Source: Oidiodendron maius Zn
Lineage: Eukaryota; Ascomycota; Leotiomycetes; Myxotrichaceae
DNA: 64,000 nt
NCBI GenBank assembly: GCA_000827325.1
Contig: KN832882.1
Location: 880,689 to 944,688, forward strand
Reading direction: 5' to 3'
Positions within the stretch are counted from its first letter, which is position 1; every line of letters begins with the position of its first letter. A model generated the notes under the pieces. It was not told where the DNA came from. It searched no databases and worked only from the letters and a program-made list of their open reading frames with translations. Shown in pieces: positions 34,623 to 51,706 of this stretch. The position numbers and the translations under genes are program-made.

Positions 34623-37600
34623 ATGTGTTTTTCTGGCGATGGCATCGAGCCCATTGCTATTATCGGACTATCATTCAAGTTCGCGGGGGATGCAGTGGAT
34701 TCGAAAACTTTTTGGCAAATGATTACTGAGGGACGTTGCGCCGCTGCACACGTTCCTGAGCATCGATTTAATGTCGACAATTTTTACCATCCTGATACGA
34801 ATAGATTGCGAACGGTATGAGAAGCAACCATTTTCCTACTTCAATATACTAAACTGATTTGTGCAACATAGCTTCCCACACGCGACGGCTACTTCCTAAA
34901 AGATGATATCGCCGCCTTCGATGCCCCTTTTTTCTCCATCACTGCGGCAGAGGCAGCTGCAATGGACCCACAGTCGAGAATCTTGTTGGAGACTTCGTAT
35001 CGAGCCCTCGAAAATGGCAAGATATCCTCGTGCGCGATTTTAATAATTTATTGCTAATGAAAGTCAGCTGGAATTCCCATCGAGAAGTGTGCTGGGACAG
35101 ACACTTCTGTATACATTGGATGCTCCTCTGAGGACTATAAGTCAATATATCTTAAGGATCCAGAGAGGCCCATTAGACATGCTGCGACGGGCATGGCGTA
35201 CAACATGCTTGCAAATAAAATCAGTTGGTTCTATGATGTTACCGGCCCAAGTATTACACTAGATACAGCCTGTTCGGCTAGTTTGAATGCCCTGCATCTT
35301 GGCTGCGAGAGTTTACGATCCGGAGACAGTTCAATGGTACGTCTAAACCCATCATGTAACAGCTAGAAACTGATTTTGCCTAGGGACTTGTTGGGGGCAT
35401 TAATATATTCTTCACTCCCGAGACCATGTCGCCACTGGCACATTTAAATTTCTTCTCTCCAGATGGTCGATGCTACAGCTTCGACCATAGAGCCAATGGA
35501 TACGCTAGGGGGGAGGGATTTGGCGTGGTTGTGATCAAACGACTAACCGACGCTTTAGCAGGTGGTGATACCATCCGGGCAGTTATTCGCGCAACTGGGT
35601 CAAACGAGAATGGGAGAACTACAGGGGGCATAACTCAAGTCAATGCCGCTGCACAAGAATCCTTAATCCGAAAAACTTATCAAAAGGCTCGACTTGATTT
35701 TAGCGAAACCAGGTATGTTGAAGCTCACGGGCCAGGAACAGGTGGCGATATTGTAGAAGCAGCTGCTTTAGCATCTGTATTCGCAGATTTTCGAAGTGAT
35801 GACGACCCTCTATACCTTGGATCATGCAAGGCAAATGTGGGGCATCTTGAGGGAGGGAGTGGCATCGCTGGCCTGATCAAGACGATCCTCATTCTGGAGC
35901 ATGGTATAATACCACAGCTTGCCAATTTCGAACGACTTAGTCCAGGGATACCAGCAGAACGGTACCATTTCAAGGTATGTGATACCCCGTCAAGAGATAT
36001 TTAGTCGTTTCTGATTGAAATATCAGTATCCAACAGAAAATACAGTTTGGCCGCCTGGGTTGCGGAGAGCATCCATAAACTCCTTCGGTTTCGGAGGCTC
36101 CAACGCCCATGTGATTATTGAAGACGCTTATCACCACTTAGAGAGGAATCATGTGCGCGGTAATCATTGTACCATAATTGCGCCTAAATTGGACGTGAAT
36201 GGGCACGCAACTACCATAAAGCCTTACACTAATGGCGACACTCAATCCTTGGATCGCAACGACACCCCGCCCTCCTCTTACTTGCTTGTTTTTTCGTCAT
36301 CTGATGAATCGAGCCTCGAGCGAAATCTGCAATCCTTTGCTACGTATTCTGCAAAGCTAGAATCAAGTCAGAATGACAAATCTTACCTGAGGAATTTAGC
36401 ATATACCCTAGCTAAGCGTCGAAGCCAACATCCATGGAGGCTTGCCTTGGTAGCAGAGTCATTGGCAGATCTCGTCAAACCTACTCCTATTGCACGACAA
36501 AGAACTCTGAGACATGCCACAATCGGATACGTCTTTACAGGGCAGGGGGCACAGTATGCTAAAATGGGTCTAGCATTGATGAAGTACAATGTATTCCAAA
36601 CAAGTCTACAGAAGTGTGAGCTTGCTCTTCAAAGCTTTGGCTGCACTTGGCTAGTGATAGGTAAATACCATCTTGGAAGATAATTTTAATTTCTGGCCCT
36701 ACTAATCTATTCAAGATGAACTATCTAAAGCTGCAGAAGGATCAAACATCCAGAAGGCGGAATACTCACAAGCTCTGACTACCGCTCTGCAGGTTGCTCT
36801 TGTCGACCTACTACAGTCGTTTGGCGTACTCCCTTCTGCCGTCTTAGGCCATTCGTCAGGCGAGATTGCTGCAGCGTAAGTTGACATGAAAACTGAAGTT
36901 ATGTTCTTGCTAACAGTATAAAGCTACTGCTGTGGCGCTCTTTCATTAGTTGAAGCGTGCAAGATTGCTTATTTTCGAGGCATATATTCGACTCGCACTG
37001 CAGACGCAGATAAGCCTCGCGGAATGATGGCAGTTGGGCTTGGGATGGAGCAGGCTGATCTATATCTCAGGAATATGCGAATTAAAGATTCAAATTTGAA
37101 TCTTACTGTAGCTTGTATTAACAGTCCAACTAATGTCACGATATCTGGGCTCGCCCAGAATCTTCGAGCACTAAAGGTCGAGCTCGATAAGCAATCCATT
37201 TTCGCTCAAATTCTAAAAGTCGACGTTGCGTATCACTCACCCTACATGGCTATAATTGCAGACGATTATAGGGCAGCCATTGGGGACATAGAAGACAAGA
37301 TCGGGATGCCTAGCATAAAATTTTATTCAACATCAACCGCACAGAGTATATCTCATCATGAACTCCAGTCTGCAGATTATTGGACAAACAATCTGCTCTC
37401 ACAAGTCCAATTTGCCTTGGCCATGACCAAATTATGTCAATCAAAGAGCGAGAACGGTATCACTCCATCAACAAACCCAAATATTATTATCGAAATTGGA
37501 CCGCATTCAGCACTTCGATCGCCGATAAAGCAAACTATTTCTAATTTTCCGGAACCATCCAGTATCTCCTATCATTCGACCCAGATGAGAAATGCAGATG

Positions 37601-40600
37601 GCTACAATACATTCCTTCAATTGCTAGGTTCTCTCTATTGTACAGGATATCCGGTATCATTTGATACTAGCAGCCATTTTGGTGATAGCCCCACTTGTTT
37701 GGCTGATCTCCCAGAGTACAGCTTCAATCACAGCAGAACCTACTGGCATGAATCGAGACTGAGCAAGAATTTCCGATTTCGAGATTATCCGGCTTTGGAC
37801 CTGTTAGGAACCAGAGTACCAGATTGGAATTCTTTGGATGCGAGGTGGAGAAATATTATAACGACGCTAGAGAATCCGTGGATAGCGGACCATCAAATAA
37901 ATGGCACATTGCTGTATCCAGGAGCGGGTCAGTTGGTGATGGCTATTGAAGCTTCTGCACAACTTGCTCGAGATATGGACGACAGACAACCTGCAGGATT
38001 TTGTTTGAAAGACGTCGAGTTTATAAAGTCTTTAAATATCTCTTTAGATTCTGAAGGCGTTGAGGCCCAAATCTCGCTGAGACCGCTCAGGAATGCTGCT
38101 GATCGGACCGTCGGGTGGTCCGAGTTCAAAGTGTGCATTTACGAGAATGAAGAATGGGTTGAAACATGCCACGGGCGAATTATGGTTGAATATAATGAAC
38201 CGGAAAACGAAATCGACAAAGGGAGGGAGAGGTCGGAGCGAGTTTTCCAACTCCAGGAAAGGTATCAGAGAATTTCTTCGCGCTGCCAAATAGAAGTGTC
38301 GAAAGAGAAGGTATATCGTCGACTCAATGATTACGGCCTGGAATTAGGTCCAACCTTCAAGGTCTTTGGCGAGATACGACATAATGATGAAAACGAGGCT
38401 GTAGCACAAGTTAAACTTCGTCAGTGGGTTTTACGTGGTAATCCGCTCCACAGTTCGCCACACTTTATTCACCCTACGGCTCTTGATGGTGTTTTACAGT
38501 TGGGCATTGCAGCATTAAGCAACTGTGGAAATGATAACGTTCCAACCATGGTGCCAAGTCGTATCAACAGGCTTTGGATGACCGCAGATGGGCTCAGTGG
38601 AGAGGATGTTGCGCCACTCAAAGGATGTGCTAAATCTGAGTATCGAGGATATCGTCATACTCACATGGATATTCTTGCTTTGGATCATGCAGCCGAACGA
38701 CCACGGATTGTAGTCGAGGGTCTTGAGACTATTATTATAGGAAGCCGCAGCTCCAACCAGGCGTCAGAGTGTCGTTTGTGTTATAAAATGACCTGGATTC
38801 CAATCACCGTGCAAGATATCCACTGCAATGGCTTCATTGAATCAAGCTCGCATCCATTACAAGATGTCGGAAATGTCACGATCATTTCTAGTCAGAACCT
38901 AATCCAAAGAGAGATTGCTGCTAATCTTATGCGCCTTCTTTTGTCGAGCAAGGAAATTAGCTGCCCATTTGTTTCAATCACATCGCTGAAAGAAGCAACT
39001 CAATTATCAACTCTGACAAACACTGTCTATATTTTCTTACTCGACCTAAATCAGTTTTACCTAAGTCAAATGGACGAAATTTCGTTCTCAGCAATAAAAG
39101 GCATTGTGTCTCGTGCGAAATCTGTCTTATGGGCGTATCCAAACCCGCAGTGCTCAGGCCATCCAACAGGACAAATATCAGGCGACATTCAAGGATTAGC
39201 TAGGACATTAAGAACCGAGTATGATGAGCTTAGGTTTGTTTCTCTTGGCCTAGAAGCCAATTCTTCAACCCAAGCGATAGCATTGTCGATTACCGACGTA
39301 TTGAAACGAACAGTTGGTTCCGAAGATCACACATACGAACCTGAGTATCTGCAAATGAATGGAGCTCTATTCGTTAGTCGACTGGTTGAAGATCGTGAGC
39401 TTAATAAAACAATATCTAAGCATAGCCTCGGCAAACAGCAAGAAGTGAGGGAATTTGGGTCACATCCAGCTCTGAAGCTTGGCATAGGAACTCCAGGCCT
39501 GCTTGACACTCTACAGTTCGAACAAGATCATACTATTACTTCACCATTACTCCCATATGAAATCGAGGTGAAACCAAAGTTTTGTGGCTTGAACTTTATG
39601 GACTGTCTTGTCGCTTTAGGTCGAGTTCCTCACACTTCTCTGGGTGTTGAAGGTTCGGGCATTGTCCTACGAGCCGGAACTGATAGCGATCTAATGCCAG
39701 GTGACAATGTCATACTCTGTGCTTCTGGCACAGTGAAGTCCGTTATACGGTGTCATTATAATACGGCAGTCAAGATACCAGACAGCATGCCTCTGCAGGA
39801 GGCAGCGGCCTTGCCAGCCACCGCGGCTACCGTTTATCATGCGCTATATAATATTGCGCGATTACGAGCCGGCGAGACAATTCTCATCCATGCTGGTGCT
39901 GGTGCTACAGGACAAATGGCAATACAGATGTCTCTTAATCTTGGAGCAATTGTTTTTGTTACTGTCGGGTCCGCTAACAAAAGATTGCTCGTCATGAAGC
40001 AGTATGGTGTACCTGAAAGGCACATATTTTACAGCCGGAATAAAGATTTTGCAAGTGGTATTCGCCGGATTACAAATGGACGTGGAGTTGACGTTGTCCT
40101 TAACTCACTAGCTGGGGACAGTCTCGTTGCCTCCTGGGAGTGCATTGCAGCATTTGGTAGATTCATCGAGATTGGAAAACGCGACATCTACTCACACAAA
40201 CAGCTACCCATGTTTCCATTTGCTAAAAATGTTACCTTCAGTGCAATTGATTTGGCAGGCATATGGCAAGACTTACCAGCGTTAATGAGACAATTACTCA
40301 GTGCTGTTGTGGAGATGGCAAACAAGAAAGAAATCAATGTTGCAACTCCCTTGAATGTATACCCGATATCAAAAGTAGAAACTGCCTTCAGGCTATTGCA
40401 AAGCGGCAAGAGTGCGGGGAAAGTGGTTCTCGAAATGAACGACGATGACCAAGTTCCGACATGTTTGGAAATTCAACCCGAGTACAACTTTCATGAGCAA
40501 TCTACCTACGTCATATCAGGTGGCCTTGGTGGATTGGGGAAAAGTGCTGCAAAGTGGCTTGTACGTCGCGGAGCGAAGCATTTGTTGCTCCTCTCAAGAT

Positions 40601-41688
40601 CTGGCCCGAAGACTGACGATGATCTCGCCTTTATCCGCAGTCTGGAGGCAAAAGGCGTGAATGTCGCCGCTCCACCCTGCGACATAACCGATTTCATAAA
40701 GCTGTCAAATATTCTGGAAACTTACTCACTTAATATGCCTCCCATCAAAGGCTGCATACAAGCTGCTATGGTTCTCAGAGTAAGTTTCTGACAAGTTAGT
40801 AGAGTATTCATGAGGCTAACAGTCTGGTAGGATCGATATTTTGCGGATATGAATCACTCGGAATGGAAGGAGAGTCTTGCACCAAAAGTTATTGGATCAT
40901 GGAACCTGCATTCGCTCCTACCGACAGGCATGGACTTCTTCATATTCTTTTCCTCCATATGCAGCGTCATTGGAGGTGTCGCACAAGCGAATTATGCAAC
41001 TGGAAATGCTTTTATGGACTCATTAGCTCGTCATCGAGTTGCGGTCGGGGAAAAGGCGATATCACTAAATCTTGGCATGATGCTCTCGGAAGGTGTGGTG
41101 GCAGAGAACGAGAAGATGATGCGAGCATTGGAAAGCAGGGGCTACTACATACCCGTAACACAACGCGACTTTTATACATTGTTAGATAAATACTGCGACT
41201 CACGGCTACCCATTCCTGATTCTGACGATGCTCAGGTAATTTGTGGGATTGAGACACCACTCAGGATCCGAATCAAAGGCCACCAAGAACCTTCATGGAT
41301 GAAGCAACCTCTCTTCGAAGAGATGTGGTCCATGGGGCTAGATGACGAGAAATTATCACCGGAGGGACAAGCGTTAAGCAAAAATTACGCCAATTTTCAA
41401 AGCATGTTCAAACAAGCCTCATCACTTGATGAAGCAGGGTCAATTGTGTCAGAAGAACTTGCTCAAAAGCTCTCACGATCGCTCATGATACCGGTAACGG
41501 ACATCGATCCTGGGAAAGCATTGCACTTTTATGGGGTAGACTCCCTGGTCGCTGTGGAGTTGCGGAACTGGTTTGCAAAGGAACTTCATGCAGACATAGC
41601 CATTTTTGAGATATTAGGCAATAGAGGTTGTGATGATCTAGGTGCATGGGTTGCATCACGCAACGGCTTCAAGAAATTTGGCATATAA
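34623..41688 (+). CDS. Highly reducing type I polyketide synthase (KS-AT-DH-ER-KR-ACP)
   Basis: Eight exons: 34623-34814, 34872-35016, 35068-35336, 35384-35974, 36027-36660, 36716-36875, 36924-40779 and 40831-41688, about 2234 aa. KS: E-P-I-A-I-I-G, active Cys in D-T-A-C-S-A-S (C181), E-A-H-G (H317) and N-V-G-H-L-E. AT: F-T-G-Q-G-A-Q and G-H-S-S-G-E (S657). [14 protein letters not shown] (H987) and T-A-L-D-G (D1185). ER: residues about 1510-1835, with [16 protein letters not shown] motif. [10 protein letters not shown] at about 1862, then S-S-I-C-S and Y-A-T-G-N. ACP: G-V-D-S-L (S2187). There is no C-methyltransferase between DH and ER. No releasing domain is present, so release needs a partner enzyme. 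Exon 2 ends at a GC donor. KS has G-P-G-T in place of the usual G-T-G-T after E-A-H. All catalytic residues are present, so it looks active and should make a reduced, unmethylated chain. Confidence 0.93.
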
Positions 41689-43172: not shown

Positions 43173-44639
43173 TGTATCGCTTGCAGGAGAGAGATAGAAT
43201 ACAGACGCCGAGGCAAGAGGATAGCAGCTGGAGATCAGAAATGAAAACGTCACGTCTCTTCAAAACTGATATCGGTCGACTTTCCGATGGCGAATACACC
43301 AAGTCTCTAACGACAAAATAAACAGAGATGCATGTGATTAGTGAGATCACGTCAGCTCTTCGGCGTGTTGAAAATATCAGCAATAACCTGATGGTTCATG
43401 GGGACTATTTGTGCTAGAACGTTACGCGGTCTCTGTCCAGGGTCTCTAAAAGAATGAAAGTGTTATGGATGTATAAAGTGTCGGCAGCAATAAAGTATCG
43501 GCAGTAATAAAATATCGACAGTAATAATGTATCGGCATTCCGCTAGGATTCTTGTAGAAGGTACTCTTTTCTCTATATGTTAGTAATTGGAAGGTTGGTA
43601 TTTAGACTGTCCGCGGAGCTCTATGTCCATCCAATTGTGCATCTCCTATAGCTTCCTGTAATTGCTTACTTGTTCCCCTATGTTCACTCATTCCTATAGT
43701 GTCTATCCCTCTATATCTAGATTCTCTAAGTTCTAAGAACCGTGAGAGATTCTCTCTTAGATATTCCTTATCTTGCTTATAGGATAGGTATTGTATGATT
43801 TCCTGCTGGCTAATGGGGTGTTTAAGAAAATTTCCTATAGAAGGCTAGGTAGTTATATAATTGCTCCCTCCTCCCATCTAGTATTCGCACTCTTGTAGGT
43901 CATTAAGGATTTATATTATCTCTCCTTTTCCCTAATCCATTTGTATAGCTGTTTTTAGGGAACGCACTAGGTTGCTAGGCTTGTTTTATATGAATGGCTA
44001 CAGGCCCTATCTTAGCTTTACCCCGACATCCCTGCGAAGCGAAAATCCCGCTTTCGACTTTAACTAAATTGCAAAGTCTCAACCAAAAACGTGATGACAC
44101 TTTTGCAGCTATCCAGCTTTGTTCCTAACATGGTCTACTTCTTAACTTTACAATTTCCCCTTTAGAACTTCTTAATTTGCTAATTAATTGAGCGATACGT
44201 GTTGCAGGACAACATGCCGAGGAATCTAAATCATATGTTTTCTACTCCTTAGTAATGTTTGTATAACCTGAAATCTTAATAGGATTATAATCATTATTTG
44301 AATATAGCATAAAGGGAATTTTATGTCTTCTAGAGTTAAAGGCGTGCTAAATTTCAAGGGTAAGGAACGATGGTCGCAACGTTTCACAAAACTGCGCTCG
44401 GCTTTTCTTGCCAACATCTTAAAGCCTGTGTTACGGTTACACCAGGTGGCTGATAAAGCCAACCCACAATCCCGACTAGTTACTCGTTAACGCTTAGAGC
44501 ACTAATATCCAACTTCTATGCTTGCCATTGACTCAATGTAGGAGAGGAAGAGACAGTATCAGGATGATTAACACCAAAGACCCGAGTCCGAAGCTGTACA
44601 CATTTCTCTTTCAGTGTAAGAGCCTCGGCATGTCAACCT
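43173..44639. other. AT-rich stretch with repeat debris, no gene
   Basis: Low-GC sequence with many stop codons on all frames. Some minus-strand stretches at 43620-43830 read as short protein-like strings (Q-E-I-I-Q-Y-L-S-Y-K-Q-D-K-E-Y-L), suggesting mobile-element or gene debris that I cannot name. Confidence 0.4.
43473..43538. repeat. 17-bp tandem repeat, about 3.9 copies
   Basis: Units ATAAAGTGTCGGCAGCA, ATAAAGTATCGGCAGTA, ATAAAATATCGACAGTA and a partial ATAATGTATCGGCAT follow each other directly. Differences between units are mostly C/T or G/A transitions. Confidence 0.85.
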
Positions 44640-46200
44640 TCCATCGGCCCTGATCCCAGTACATTGACGCGAGGTTGGCCATGCTTATTAGTGTGTCTGG
44701 ATACTTGGCCCCAAGCACCTCCTTCCTCACCTCCATCACCTGTACCTCTAACTCTTCAGCCTCCTTCCGCCAGCCCCGACTTTAGTACGTTGACGCGAGG
44801 TTGGCCATGCTTGTTAGCGTGTCTGGATGCTCGGCCCCAAGCACCCTCTTGCTCACCTCCATCACCTGTACCTTTAACTCTTCGGCCTCCTTCCATTGCC
44901 TCCAAGGCTATATGCTAACACAACCATCGCCATGCTATTTAGTGTTTCTTTATGCTCTCGACCAAATATTTCTCTCCTCGTTTTCATGGACTTTCCCGAC
45001 ACCTTTTCCACATCCCTTACGTTTCCTCTTCTCCACGCCTACCGTGCTGCATTATACAATATTGAAGCCCATTCCCGTAATGAGCCCTTGTCATCCAGCT
45101 GCTACATTACTGTAGACTTTGCGTGTAGAAAAAGTGTCTGACACTTTTCCTAGCTCTCATGCTCTCCTATCGGAAATTCAGTAACTGTGACAGTTCGGAG
45201 ATCCCTAGGTCCGCTACTGTCACGGTTTGACCTCGCTTACCTAGGTCCCGTTATATTACTCCTCCACGCTTAGTTAGCACTCCTTTCTTCTTCAGTTTGT
45301 TCTCCTGTTACGATGGTTGATAGTCGAATATACCTTTGATTCCTTCTCTTCGAGATTTATCCTTCACGGTGTAGTGGATCTAGGTCCCTGTGTCAAGGGA
45401 TACTCCCTGATTCGGCTCGGCTACGGCTACGCCTACGCCTATGCCATCGGTAGAACCCCGGTAAGCTCTTGCAGGAAATTGCCAATAATCAAGAAACAAT
45501 AGTCAAGGCAATAGATTGGCAATAGGTAGAATGTAAGGAATCGTGAAGGCATTGTATATATATAGTTACCACGTAGCTAGTAATTTCCCCTTCTTTTCTT
45601 CATGAAATTCAAAGACGGTTTTACCCCAGGTCACGTTTTAATTGCGTTTCAGTGTGAACCTTTATACCTGTTTGACAGAGCCATCACAGCCACGGACCCC
45701 CGTGGCTACTTAAATGTGACCATATAGTCTAGCTAGTCTTCTCTTTCTTCTTCATCTTGATCTCCTTCGTCAATTGAGAGTTGTCTAGTCCATTCAGAGC
45801 TCAAACCGTGACAGTAGCAAGATTCTTAATAAACTGCCCCTTCTATTTTTCAAGCTATAAGTGAGACACAAGCTACTCTTGTATAGCTAGCTGCACTAGC
45901 CTATGCATTTCAAAGTATTAATACCTGTATTAACCGAGATAAATGAGTAGTTTCTTAGCATCAATATATCGTCTTTAAACCTATCACCTTAAGCTGATTC
46001 TGATAGGCTATCTTTATCACTGTTCTTCTCACCATCTACATTATAACTTCCTACATCCTTAAAGCTTTGTTTCGCTTCGACCCTTTGAACTAAGGACTCG
46101 GGCATCCCTTGCTGGTCAAAGAAGCTCATAAGTGATAGTAGGTTAGCTGCTAATACCCTAGCTTCGTGTATGTAATCGAATGATATTTGCCAAGCAGTGA
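44640..46200 (-). pseudogene. Remnant of an NB-ARC/TPR (kinesin-light-chain-repeat) NLR-like gene
   Basis: Read on the minus strand from high to low coordinates, I find A-W-Q-I-S-F-D-Y-I-H-E-A-R-V-L-A-A-N-L-L-S followed by L-M-S-F-F-D-Q-Q-G-M-P-E-S-L at about 46195-46080. This is the winged-helix region after the NB-ARC in fungal NLR-like proteins. After an inserted element come kinesin-light-chain-type TPRs at about 45070-44640: R-R-E-I-F-G-R-E-H-K-E-T-L-N-S-M-A, then A-E-E-L-E-V-Q-V-M-E-V-R-K-E-V-L-G with P-D-T-L-I-S-M-A-N-L-A-S. The parts are split over frames and no P-loop survives, so the gene is decayed. Intact relatives are STAND proteins of incompatibility or immunity. It lies next to, and opposite in direction from, the SesA-cullin gene. 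Confidence 0.65.
45213..45818. mobile_element. 606-bp insertion bounded by perfect 18-bp inverted repeats (solo LTR or non-autonomous element)
   Basis: GCTACTGTCACGGTTTGA at 45213-45230 is the exact reverse complement of 45801-45818. Within these, ends of the form TGTCACGG...CCGTGACA follow the TG...CA rule of LTRs, and a TATA-like GTATATATATAG lies inside near 45554. No coding frame is seen. The element lies between the NB-ARC and TPR parts of the NLR remnant, so it inserted into that gene. A solo LTR of a Ty3-like element and a short DNA transposon are both possible. Direct flanking repeats are not clear, so the family is left open. Its age is unknown. Confidence 0.6.
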
Positions 46201-46259
46201 GAATAGAGTTTTTAGCCTCCTAGTCTCTATAAAAGTGTCCCCCTTCGTAATTCAAAAGA

Positions 46260-46460
46260 CTTCTCTTCTTGTAGTCGTTCTTCTAGAACTCTTTGAGATA
46301 AGGCTGAATTTTGTGGGATGTATGCGGCAGTAGCCTACAAAGGACAATATTATTCTCGTAGCAGTATTGCAGTAATTCTAGGGACTCATGTGTACCAAAT
46401 CAGTTGAAGCTCTGGACTAGGAGTACAAGTGCAAATTCTATTCCTCCTACCTACGAGGGT
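46260..46460 (-). mobile_element. Fragment of a DDE (Tc1-mariner/pogo-type) transposase
   Basis: On the minus strand, G-T-H-E-S-L-E-L-L-Q-Y-C-Y-E-N-N-I-V-L is followed by L-L-P-H-T-S-H-K-I-Q-P-Y-L-K. This matches the segment around the second and third catalytic residues of pogo-type transposases (x-H-x-x-H-x-x-E-F...L-P-P-H-T-S-H-x-L-Q-P-L-D). Stop codons interrupt it and no terminal repeats are seen. It is a different copy from the element at 23032-24904 and more diverged. Confidence 0.6.
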
Positions 46461-46970: not shown

Positions 46971-49900
46971 ATGTCTAGCGCCGAGGCTGGGTTGGTCATT
47001 GGCCTCATTTCGGGCGTGATATCCATCATTGAGGCAACTAAAACAGTGTATGATGCCGCCAAAGATGCGAAAGACCAGCCAGAGGCATTCGGCCAAGTGG
47101 CTGCACGACTGCCAATCGTTACCGAAATCCTTCGCAGCGCTGAAGAGAGGGCATCGGCGCTCGAGGAGACGGCACTAGAGGCATTAGAGCATACTCTAGA
47201 GTCATGCAAGGCGAAGGCTGAGAACCTCAAGACGATATTCCAGGAGGTTATTCGGAAGGATGACGACAAGTGGTACGACCGATACAAGAAAGCCCTAAGT
47301 ACATTAGGAAATGGGGACGAAGTGGAGTGTTTGATGGAAGGGATATTGAAGGACATTCAAGTGCTTATATGCGAGAGGCTGAAGGGAGCCGCCATCGAAG
47401 CCCAAGTAAAGGAAATCGAAGAGGCGATCAATCAGATGAACGAAATGCCTTGCTCTCTCCCGGACGATGCCAGGGCTGTCCAGATGCCTCCCGTATCCAA
47501 TAGAGAAGATCATGATGGAACGTGAGTGCTGCCTTATTTGAACTCGACGCGTCTGGAGAAATGTACTACAACTGATGCAGGTGGAACTATCTGAGAGCTG
47601 GCATTGAGCGAATCATGCGGTCGCCTGAAAATTCAGTTGGCTACGTGGAAATGGTGAGCTCTTTCATCACACTTCTTCGCAGTGATTAATTCTGACGGGT
47701 TGTGACCCCCTATAGTATATGGGATTATATACGTGGGTCTCTCATTGACTGCCAGGCTTAGGTTGGATGTTTACACTGTGTCCAGCGCCGTCCACAACTA
47801 TTGCACTTTTCAAAAAGCGGTCAGTGGGGGTGCTCATCGAGGAGGTTCGCCACGATCCCCATATCAACCAGTTTTGGCAGTCGTATGCTCACATTTTACA
47901 GCTCACTTATCTGGAGGGGAATTGTACCAACGCCTTGCAAGATACCTTGCTTCCTATCTAGAAGACCTTGTGAAGTCAAGATCCGACGCCGGGGAGACCG
48001 TCCTTGCGTTCTATATTCGAGAATGGGATCGATACAGAGCTGGCGCAAAAGTTATTAACCATATTTTCCGGTTCCTCAACCGCCATTGGGTCAAGCGCCA
48101 GTGGGATGAAGGATATAGGGACGTCTTCGACGTCTATACGCTTCACTTGGTCCAGTGGCGAGAGGTGGCCTTTGCAAAACTCCATAGGGACGTCATGGAG
48201 GCAGTATTGAAGATGGTCGAGAGACAGCGCAACGGTGAAACCATCGAGCACGGCCTGATTAAAAGCATAGTCGATTCTTTTGTTATGGTTGGGGTCAACG
48301 AGACAGACCCTACGAAGACAACCCTTGAGATTTACCGTCATTACTTTGAAACCCCATTCTTAGATGCCACAAAGAAGTTCTACCAGAATGAGTCGAAGCA
48401 ATTCGTGGCAGACAACGGTGTGGTGGAATATATAAAGAAGGCTGAAGCCTGGCTCTATGAGGAGGACGAGCGTGTTAAGATGTACCTGGATCCTAACATT
48501 GCGGATCCTTTGAGGAGGATTTGCAACACTGCTCTAATTGTAGATCATGAGACACTTTTGCGAGGGGAATTCCAATCTCTACTCGACAATGACCAAGTTG
48601 ATGACATAGCCCGTATGTACAATCTGCTTTCACGAATTTCAGGTGGATTGGACTCTCTACCTACAAAAATTAGGGACACTAATGGCATGGTGCTGCTCTG
48701 GGATGCCGACAGGGAAGCATGGATGCAGGAACTGGTTGATGATATTCGGATCGAGAATAAGGAGCGTGAAGTCGCTAACTCAGACTCCGGCTATGCTTCT
48801 GGTACTTATAGACAGTGTAATACTGTCGACACCTATGCAAAATCCAAGCTTGCGGGAATAGCGGAGGCATCTAAGTCCCAAGAACGCGCTTGGTTGGGCT
48901 GCCGAGCTGACGCTGCAGATCCGCTCAGCATAGGACTCTATGATAAGGACACTGCATACTCACCGTCTGAGACACCGTCTCTACCACCTTTGCGGAGCAA
49001 AATCTACATTGATGACCTGGCATCCCAATTATTCAGGACTGTCTCATCACAGAAGCCAGACCAGGAGACACTGAACCGTATTTCCCGAGAACTCCCGGAT
49101 CTTCTTAGGGCCTTCTCTCTCAAGATCGGTTACAGGGCAACACTAACACAATGTCACGTTGCATACTTCCTCCACAAGTACCGCGGGTACGTCAGCTAGA
49201 ACACTTGCTTATTCCCTAATATAACTACGAGACTGACTTTTAACCCAGACATATTCAACAATCCTTCGAAGACATGTTTCCGCTAGAGCCTTTTTCCAAA
49301 GTCAACGTTATTGATTCCTCAGATGCTGAGGACTACAAAATTGCTCGCTATTTCGAGGGGCTGGGCTTGGCCGTAGACCCTCTAGAGGAAGAAGATTCTG
49401 AATATCAACATCTTCCGCCGGCTGTGGCGGACCGAGCCTCCCCAGCAGGGAGTGATCACAATGGCGACACGGAAGACAATATTGAGCCTCCTGAACCTAC
49501 TCCATATCGAGATTCTGTGTTGGGTTCTCCAGCATTCAATTGGCTCATTACAACGCTGCTGACAGAAGTCAGTTTGACGCGCCAAAGGGCCGATGTCATG
49601 CGAAGCATCAGAAACCAGATCTTAAGCACGCTTCCATCCTCGCATGAAGTCAGCCGAAAAAAGTCCTCCAGAGAGTACAGGGCCACATTCGAGATAGACT
49701 GGGACCCTTTGTCTTTTGTGAAGGAACAAAAATATCAAGAGAGTCCAGACGAGGCTATCAAGCGTTCCATCACCCTAACGGGCTCTCCAGAGGACGCGCA
49801 AGCCCTGACCACCGGGCAATATCTCGCTCAGACATGGCCTACTAGCGGCGCTGAAGTGATGCGGATAGTCGCTGAGGTCATACGTAATCCGGATCATCAT

Positions 49901-51706
49901 GCTTCTGGTGAGTGACAGTGCACAGTGTTGACGAATTGGGCGAAACCTAAGTCCTCCATTACCTAGGCACTCTACCAGATGGAACCGAGCTGCAGACGCG
50001 CATTGACGGCGGCAAGTTCACGGTTTATGCGACTGGCATTGCGGACTCGCTTGCAGAAGTTGCGCAACAGTTCGCGTGGCTTGGTTCCGCGCTCCGCTCA
50101 TCGCCGTTCGAATCCGGAATCGCCATGTGCTCACCGGCCATCCGCAACCCTTCTCTCAAGAACATAGCACCCCAAGGCAAAGCATCCGATTCAGAACCGT
50201 ACGCTGAGATTTCTTGCATCATTGAATTTGACATACAAAAGCCCTTGAACAGCGCGCAGGGAGGGGCTGGACACTGTTGGCACAGCATGTTCAGAAACCC
50301 AGTTATGGTGAAGGGCTATCCTATCATGGCCAAACATAAGACTGGCCTGGGTCTTGAATGAAAGAGACAAGCGCGGCTGGCTTGTTAACGGCACCAGCGC
50401 ATTACTCCATCTTATACGCGCTTCAATCGAGCATCACAGGAACGGTGACTTTTCAGCTCTGGTGACATTCGAGTCCAGCAAAATAAAAGCTCCAGCTGAA
50501 CTCAAACCGAATTCCGCCTCCCAAGTTTTGTCAAATCCGGAAAATCTTGAACTAGAGGTCCAGCTCGACAATGTAGAAAAAACCGACGAATATGAGCCAA
50601 TACAAGACGCAAACGGTTCAATGTCAATAAACAGGAACCCAAAGATCAAGAGGACCTATAAGCTCTTCTGTGACGTTGTGGAGGAGCACTACCACCACCT
50701 GGAGCAGATCATAGATTACCAGGTCCACACCGGCGGACAGAATGGAGTTAAAATCAAGCTCAGGGTACGGAAACACCTTGAAGGGTGGGATTTCATGGAG
50801 CTGGCAACGGGCCATGACCCGTCTCCACGCGTGGCGACCCTTGAAGCATTGGGCTGGGGCTGGGTAGATTTTGTTCGCTCCATTGAAGCAATTACCCTCA
50901 TCGGAAGCGGTTTCGGGGAAATGATTCGTCCAACTGAATTCGATGGAATGTGCCCCAACTGGAAAACGCTCCCAACGCAAAGATATTACCTCGCTGCTAC
51001 GGTCTTCGACCTCGAGAATGTCATTAAGACAAAGAAGTTTGGTGGCAGTCTGGAGCAACCCATAAAAGTCGTTCGAGACCTTCTGTGGCACTCTCCCCAA
51101 GAAACTGTGGCACCTTGTCCATGTCATTCCTGGCCCGGGCCACAGGGATGTCTTGCCGGGTTCAGGCACCATCATGATCCTGTCCAGGTCTTTTACCCAA
51201 CAGCCTTAAAGCCAATATTACCCATAAGAGGGCCTGATAAATTACATAGTGCAGGCGCTATTGTGTTTGGCCACCACATTAACTGGAGGCTTCGTTGGAA
51301 GGAGAAAGGCGATGAGCATGTAGAGCAGGGCGAACCGCCACCGTTATTGGCAGCTACTTATGAGCTCGATGCCACGGCGGTTAGCGCACAATCCAGAGCA
51401 TCAAGAGACGCAGCACCCACACAGGTTGCGAGCTCGAGCTCGCAGAGCCATGAAAGCAGCTCTGGCGTAACGAGATATACATCTGCCATAGCCCCCGCAA
51501 CAGTATCGACATCCATTGAGTCAGTCACTGACTCGGAAGCTCTCACTACCTTCTCATCATCTGAAATTTCGCGCGACACCTTGACTTCAGCCGAACAGAT
51601 TCCACCAGATGGTACGCCCAGGGGAGAGATACAGGAGACGAGACAAGGCGAGAAGAAAGTGAGCCTGTTCCGCAAGATAATGAGAAGACGAAAGAAGTCA
51701 AACTAG
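46971..51706 (+). CDS. SesA domain fused to cullin-1 N-terminal domain and a long fungal C-terminal module
   Basis: Exons: 46971-47521, 47581-47653, 47716-47732, 47786-47844, 47902-49186, 49249-49907, 49967-50307 or -50361, and a last frame to 51706. Residues 1 to about 150 are SesA-like (A-G-L-V-I-G-L-I-S-G-V-I-S-I-I-E-A-T-K), the N-terminal domain of fungal NLRs. Residues about 184-490 match cullin-1: T-W-N-Y-L-R-A-G-I-E-R-I-M, Y-M-G-L-Y-T-A-V-H-N-Y-C-T, A-H-R-G-A-H-L-S-G-G, F-Y-I-R-E-W-D-R-Y, L-N-R-H-W-V-K-R, Y-T-L-H-L-V-Q-W, and D-D-I-A-R-M-Y-N-L-L-S-R-I. The Skp1/F-box contact helices are kept, while the Rbx1-binding C-terminal half is absent. After S-D-S-G-Y-A-S comes a module seen in large hypothetical ascomycete proteins (L-P-D-L-L-R-A-F-S-L-K-I-G-Y...F-L-H-K-Y-R; C-W-H-S-M-F-R-N-P-V-M-V-K-G-Y-P-I; R-G-W-L-V-N-G-T-S-A-L-L-H-L). 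The frame stops at 50361. A 64-nt GTGAAG...AAG intron (50308-50371) would keep frame to 51706 (about 1439 aa). Intron 47845-47901 is a multiple of three with a weak donor and may be retained. Confidence 0.7.

Follow-up and report, generated by a model that had tools for sequence, protein, structure and literature searches.

A gene of Oidiodendron maius that joins a SesA domain to the N-terminal part of a CUL1-type cullin

Within the 64,000-nt stretch analysed here (the window, which lies on contig C13 of the screened assembly of 45.9 Mb and 58 contigs), we resolve one plus-strand gene in which a SesA domain, the N-terminal part of a CUL1-type cullin and a further C-terminal module follow one another in a single open frame. 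In the spliced gene model, this gene occupies 46971-50361 and encodes 1012 aa in seven exons, separated by GT-AG introns of 53-62 bases each. Fungal NLRs commonly shuffle domains around SesA, and truncated forms of CUL1 are established laboratory tools; the new element is the combination of SesA with truncated CUL1. The fusion is a further, partial CUL1-type copy retained under constraint within a SesA protein. It is quite possible, although we stop short of calling it probable, that this SesA protein docks on SCF adaptors in the manner of dominant-negative CUL1. The layout of the locus is as follows.

44519..46309, minus strand: NLR remnant (NB-ARC/TPR), split into pieces that lie in several frames and oriented head to head with the fusion gene
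46971..47521, plus strand: exon 1, SesA and then the start of the CUL1 exon-1 homology
47522..47580, plus strand: intron 1, phase 2, donor GTGAGT; position and phase as in intron 1 of the genome's CUL1
47581..47653, plus strand: exon 2, first CUL1 segment, WNYLRAGIERIM...
47716..47732, plus strand: exon 3, 17 nt, YMGLYT, with the counterparts of human CUL1 Y42/M43
Either side of exon 3, plus strand: introns 2 and 3, phases 0 and 2, both common to CUL1
47786..47844, plus strand: exon 4, AVHNYCT...HRG
Directly after exon 4, plus strand: intron 4, phase 1, common to CUL1
47902..48668, plus strand: cullin portion of exon 5, with its last residue at fusion position 489 (own CUL1 334); presumably the remainder of the first cullin repeat, the second and part of the third
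48669..50361, plus strand: linker DSGYAS and the initial section of the C-terminal module, matching other genes of the genome
To 49186, then 49249..49907 and 49967..50361, plus strand: remainder of exon 5 and the last two exons of the gene model, with the stop codon at 50359..50361
50312..51706, plus strand: downstream open frame in another frame, 464 aa, homologous to the later part of the C-terminal module

The first-pass annotation of this DNA had placed a SesA exon at 46971-47521, with the donor GTGAGT and an acceptor right before 47581, and had the frame resume past intron 1 as TWNYLRAGIERIM; the spliced gene model agrees on both counts. It had ended the gene at 48672, which is wrong, as the open frame passes two further introns and reaches 50361. 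A Pfam search of the spliced protein places both profiles that the annotation had proposed, SesA and cullin, on the same protein. SesA (PF17107) is found at residues 13-132 (nt 47007-47366, E = 5.6e-35), with a score of 120.6 bits against a curated cut-off of 26.3 and a match to positions 1-122 of the 122-position profile, and the domain is complete. PF17111 also overlaps this stretch with a score under its own cut-off. Homology of the SesA type with the paralogues extends to about residue 165-167. SesA is classed with the HeLo-like domains, relatives of pore-forming death effectors, in passages of three papers (PMC4986451, PMC9815663, PMC12258605).

SesA matches number 14 in this genome, and we examined five of these loci (L049-L053) by the adjacency of their unspliced ORFs. 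At four of the five, the SesA ORF precedes an NLR-body ORF on the same strand: ORFs with NACHT and WD40 at L049, where other ORFs intervene, an ORF with NB-ARC and TPR at L050, and ORFs with NACHT and ANK at L052 and L053. The SesA stretch of L051 is interrupted by stops, and we noticed no NLR body there. The SesA domain of the fusion shares 38-40% identity with its counterparts in L049 and L050. As in these fungal NLRs with a SesA/HeLo-like N-terminus, SesA leads the fusion protein, whereas the NACHT or NB-ARC domain and the WD40, TPR or ANK repeats of L049, L050, L052 and L053 are missing from it; Pfam gives no NACHT or NB-ARC match up to E = 1 in either the 1012-aa protein or the downstream ORF. 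By eye, the asparagine-rich end of the L049 SesA ORF recurs in non-identical form at the end of a second ORF ahead of the NACHT ORF, so that the front part of this locus looks as if it were doubled.

Behind SesA, the cullin profile PF00888 matches residues 185-491 (E = 1.1e-69). The assignment to cullin-1 made in the first-pass annotation is borne out: among solved structures, CUL1 chains match best (1ldk, E = 1.5e-75), with CUL2 (6.5e-29), CUL3 (1.2e-25), CUL5 (1e-24) and CUL4 (3e-20) well behind, the genome's own CUL1 (C1:4732442-4734319) is 63% identical over 317 aligned codons, and its first four introns are shared. A search of the whole genome with PF00888 returns six matches, which consist of this CUL1, a CUL3-like gene (L001), two adjoining pieces of a CUL4-like gene (L003 and L006), the weak match L005, which is putatively APC2-like, and the fusion locus, where only positions 26-284 are matched; the CUL3-like and CUL4-like types were named by follow-up comparison of L001 and L003. 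When the cullin portion itself is the query, three of the five matches are exon pieces of the fusion, and the other two are the genome's own CUL1 (63%) and the CUL3-like gene (24%). A DNA-level search of the same genome returns the fusion locus alone, and bacterial/archaeal and viral contigs yield zero relatives to one query of six peptide patterns.

The copy is a partial one. The PF00888 match in the protein covers positions 1-284 of 620, the C-terminal cullin half is absent from the 1012-aa protein, and no Pfam family matches the downstream ORF up to E = 1, in keeping with the earlier claim that the Rbx1-binding half is missing. The C-terminal half of a cullin carries Rbx1 binding and the Nedd8 site. 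The cullin had also been said to run up to about residue 490, which is right in the numbering of the fusion (489) and misleading in that of CUL1, where the last residue of the copy is about 334 (own CUL1) or about 338 (human). The copy presumably covers two cullin repeats and part of a third. The N-terminal domain of cullins is described, in part of PMC4403949, as three five-helix repeats. An AlphaFold2 model of the cullin portion of exon 5, built from the single sequence, has a mean pLDDT of 40.5 and was set aside.

The joint between the two domains lies inside exon 1. CUL1 homology begins within the SesA exon at residue 172 (nt 47484, or slightly earlier), where MPPVSNRED of the fusion faces MPPVPNRED of CUL1. 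The model of the genome's own CUL1 starts with MSVATRTVLMPPVPNREDIDAT, followed by an intron and WKYLEAG, while the fusion reads ...SLPDDARAVQMPPVSNREDHDGT, followed by an intron and WNYLRAG. All four introns of the CUL1 part have the positions and phases (2, 0, 2, 1) of the first four introns of own CUL1. Because the homology starts inside the SesA exon and the four introns match, the joint is placed in coding DNA and intron 1 is the first intron of CUL1 itself; on this gene structure, the fusion arose from a genomic CUL1 copy that, complete with its introns, was attached to SesA within coding sequence near the CUL1 start codon. Hence, the splicing of a SesA exon to a cullin exon, by which the first-pass annotation had explained the chimera, does not hold, as the domains did not come together through an intron. 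The CUL1/Cdc53 family of this genome is thus the source family of the cullin portion, from which the fusion differs in lacking everything past about residue 334. It is very improbable that the locus instead makes two products, SesA alone and a short cullin initiated at an internal ATG (M172, nt 47484-47486). Such a start would use the methionine of MPPV that CUL1 and the fusion have in common; however, the SesA and CUL1 homologies nearly abut in one exon with no intervening stop, which leaves nowhere outside coding sequence for a terminator or promoter.

Two other origins were considered for the cullin portion. A misjoin in the assembly between a SesA gene and CUL1 was ruled out because the portion is just 63% identical to the sole CUL1 found. 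The GC content at third positions is lower in the cullin portion (0.51) than in own CUL1 (0.68), and a foreign origin on this ground was dropped because the C-terminal part of the fusion is alike (0.52).

The cullin portion has diverged far from own CUL1 while keeping its frame and much of its sequence. Among 317 codons, there is no stop and 200 residues are identical (NG86 dN of 0.27 with dS saturated), with identity of 37% at third positions and at 23 of 82 four-fold sites. In a simple neutral simulation that took own CUL1 as a proxy for the ancestor and was run at 10, 25, 50 and 100% of the four-fold distance, none of the 1000 runs at any of the four settings remained free of stops. With human CUL1 as the outgroup, 300 columns contain 21 differences found only in the fusion versus 19 found only in own CUL1, and their identities to human CUL1 are 138 and 140 of these columns, respectively. 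The comparisons show a cullin portion that, as judged from few and distant sequences and by measures blind to the most recent relaxation, has been under long constraint and has changed no faster than CUL1. In the SesA part (167 columns), the fusion has 28 lone differences, compared with 22 in L050 when L049 is the outgroup and 21 in L049 when L050 is the outgroup. The constraint on the cullin portion ranks the fusion above a random chimera.

The first-pass annotation missed the third part of the protein. Beyond the DSGYAS linker lies a region also present in other genes of the genome: a search with it gives 15 matches, three of which are exons of the fusion and 12 of which lie elsewhere, in eight places by grouping. 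We compared seven of the eight (L041 and L043-L048, leaving out C11:385085), and all seven match the fusion by tblastn; by eye, four of them have the DSGY linker. Neither the fusion nor the other module ORFs run against Pfam give the module a name. These genes share the C-terminal module with the fusion and differ in their N-terminal parts from SesA-cullin: that of L045 consists of ankyrin repeats, and the N-terminal ORFs of L041, L043, L044, L047 and L048 match no Pfam family (five of the six run, L046 being outside the set). With its varied N-terminal partners, this unnamed fungal module looks like a hub of domain shuffling.

In the fusion, this module is cut short. The frame stops at 50361 where the paralogue L041 goes on, and the later module part lies in another frame in the ORF at 50312-51706; by manual count against a partial L041 model, about 155 residues of L041 are absent between the two. 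No intron with good signals bridges the stop among donors at 50200-50361 and lengths up to 250. The module probably had a regulatory or sensing role in the past and is truncated in this allele, which may be damaged. A gap and a stop without a convincing bridging intron in the searched range, next to an NLR remnant that is itself in several broken pieces, are what would be expected if an old, once-used fusion were being lost and this allele yielded at most a truncated, functionless protein. We regard such decay as unlikely, if deserving of serious weight, given that the SesA and cullin portions are intact and the latter is constrained. The downstream frame also argues against it, with zero stops over 447 codons, an outcome that neutral drift preserves in 32 of 500 runs at 0.05 substitutions per site and in 4 of 500 at 0.1 and that is thus rare past about these distances. 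Nor has this frame accelerated: over 316 columns with L047 as the outgroup, the fusion has 26 lone differences and L041 has 25. Upstream of the stop, one module part is faster in the fusion (17 versus 8 for L041, 141 columns), while another is not (11 versus 16, 113 columns). An open downstream frame with unaccelerated change indicates, at the level of sequence, that the lesion is younger than the fusion or that the frame is still in some use. Our confidence overall is moderate, as the recent truncation offsets the constraint on the cullin portion.

The reading that we prefer, docking on SCF adaptors, starts from what the CUL1 copy keeps. The counterparts of human Y42 and M43, the only Skp1-contact residues that we compared, are retained as Y209 and M210; the literature look-up for contact residues found none beyond these two. 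In passages of PMC4737497, the Y42A/M43A double mutant of human CUL1 shows no SKP1 binding, while CUL1 1-452 binds SKP1 and does not bind RBX1. Skp1 is likewise sequestered by Cul1-N252, according to part of PMC8957228. As in the fusion, these laboratory dominant-negative forms of CUL1 (CUL1 1-452 and Cul1-N252; PMC4737497, PMC8957228) keep the Skp1-binding N-terminal part without the Rbx1 half. The fusion differs from them in being a natural gene that ends at about human position 338, with SesA ahead and a fungal module behind, and for which Skp1 binding is a prediction. Identity to own CUL1 is 11/17 in the stretch taken as the H2 region and 16/23 in that taken as the H5 region, compared with 188/300 for the whole. 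By this measure, H2 and H5 are about as conserved as the whole, and the likely contact face would have no special conservation.

We propose that the cullin portion would bind Skp1/F-box modules through repeat 1 and that, as the Rbx1/Nedd8 half is missing, the fusion would be unable to build a ligase. Modules bound in this way could be withheld from CUL1, which would make the protein a natural dominant-negative CUL1. Alternatively, they could serve to gather SesA domains, which would tie the state of SCF to signalling by SesA of the HeLo-like class. The earlier suggestion of a decoy, trap or platform thus draws some support from the architecture, the constraint, the Y42/M43 counterparts and the literature on truncated CUL1. 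Its account of how the gene was assembled and its two-part view of the protein did not survive, and the recent truncation of the module makes a fully working allele less likely. If the fusion binds Skp1, a known dominant-negative tool would have its equivalent in nature, and SCF ligases would be linked directly to the domains that stand at the N-terminus of fungal NLRs. Two Skp1 matches are present in the genome; the second (L060; G000:C14, C14:52582-52722) also matches Skp1 chains, and a dedicated Skp1 partner of the fusion, such as L060, is possible. L060 is a diverged Skp1-like gene with, by eye, WD40- and ankyrin-like ORFs close by.

The docking reading can be extended to fungal immunity or incompatibility. 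A captured adaptor-binding half of CUL1 would then replace the nucleotide-binding part of an NLR, with SCF adaptors as the platform or guarded target, and the protein would report the state of ubiquitin to a SesA death pathway; we think this extension unlikely as it stands. A related proposal, which we find rather unlikely, is that the CUL1 half is an integrated bait, decoying an attacker of SCF (a competitor's or non-self factor) and so triggering signalling of the SesA type, with the C-terminal module as the receptor part. It fits the order of domains, in that CUL1 homology follows SesA here where NLR-body ORFs follow it at L049, L050, L052 and L053, as well as the attachment of the module to varied N-terminal parts in other genes and the NLR remnant that adjoins the fusion gene. 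On the other hand, Pfam finds no nucleotide-binding domain in the fusion, there is no known effector or partner, and the cullin portion has evolved no faster than CUL1, although a surface in conflict might be expected to do so.

Among cullins, CUL7 and Parc (CUL9) resemble the SesA-cullin gene in that a cullin is fused with other domains; both retain the Rbx1-binding half, unlike the fusion. CUL7 and Parc arose from gene fusions according to part of a cullin survey (PMC2785787), in which fungi are described as retaining three cullin genes with occasional duplications. Among the matches listed in the open-access literature, to which the search was confined with subscription papers and fungal protein databases outside its scope, we found no report of a link between SesA and a cullin or SCF, and the word cullin is absent from the portions of fungal NLR surveys that were available as text. 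Annotated examples of the architecture may exist elsewhere, for example, in fungal protein databases. One open-access text matched SesA, cullin and NACHT together and was rejected, as Cullin there is an author's name.

On the other side of the fusion gene lies the NLR remnant at 44519-46309. Of the four loci compared, L050 has the ORF (NB-ARC/TPR) closest to it, the main pieces of the remnant being 50-72% identical to that ORF, with weaker pieces besides. Beside the remnant, at 35384-41685 on the plus strand, is a polyketide synthase of the highly reducing type, in which ketosynthase, acyltransferase, dehydratase, reductase and ACP domains are recognised. With a housekeeping gene copied in part close to polyketide synthase domains (about 35.4-41.7 kb), one might think of self-resistance, that is, a diverged copy of a drug target beside a biosynthetic cluster. 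We consider this extremely improbable, since the copy is truncated, is attached to both SesA and the module, and has the NLR remnant between itself and the synthase. Rfam and tRNA scans of the window give no matches. Further along the window are a fungal transcription-factor domain at 52.6 kb and a short-chain dehydrogenase at 55.3 kb.
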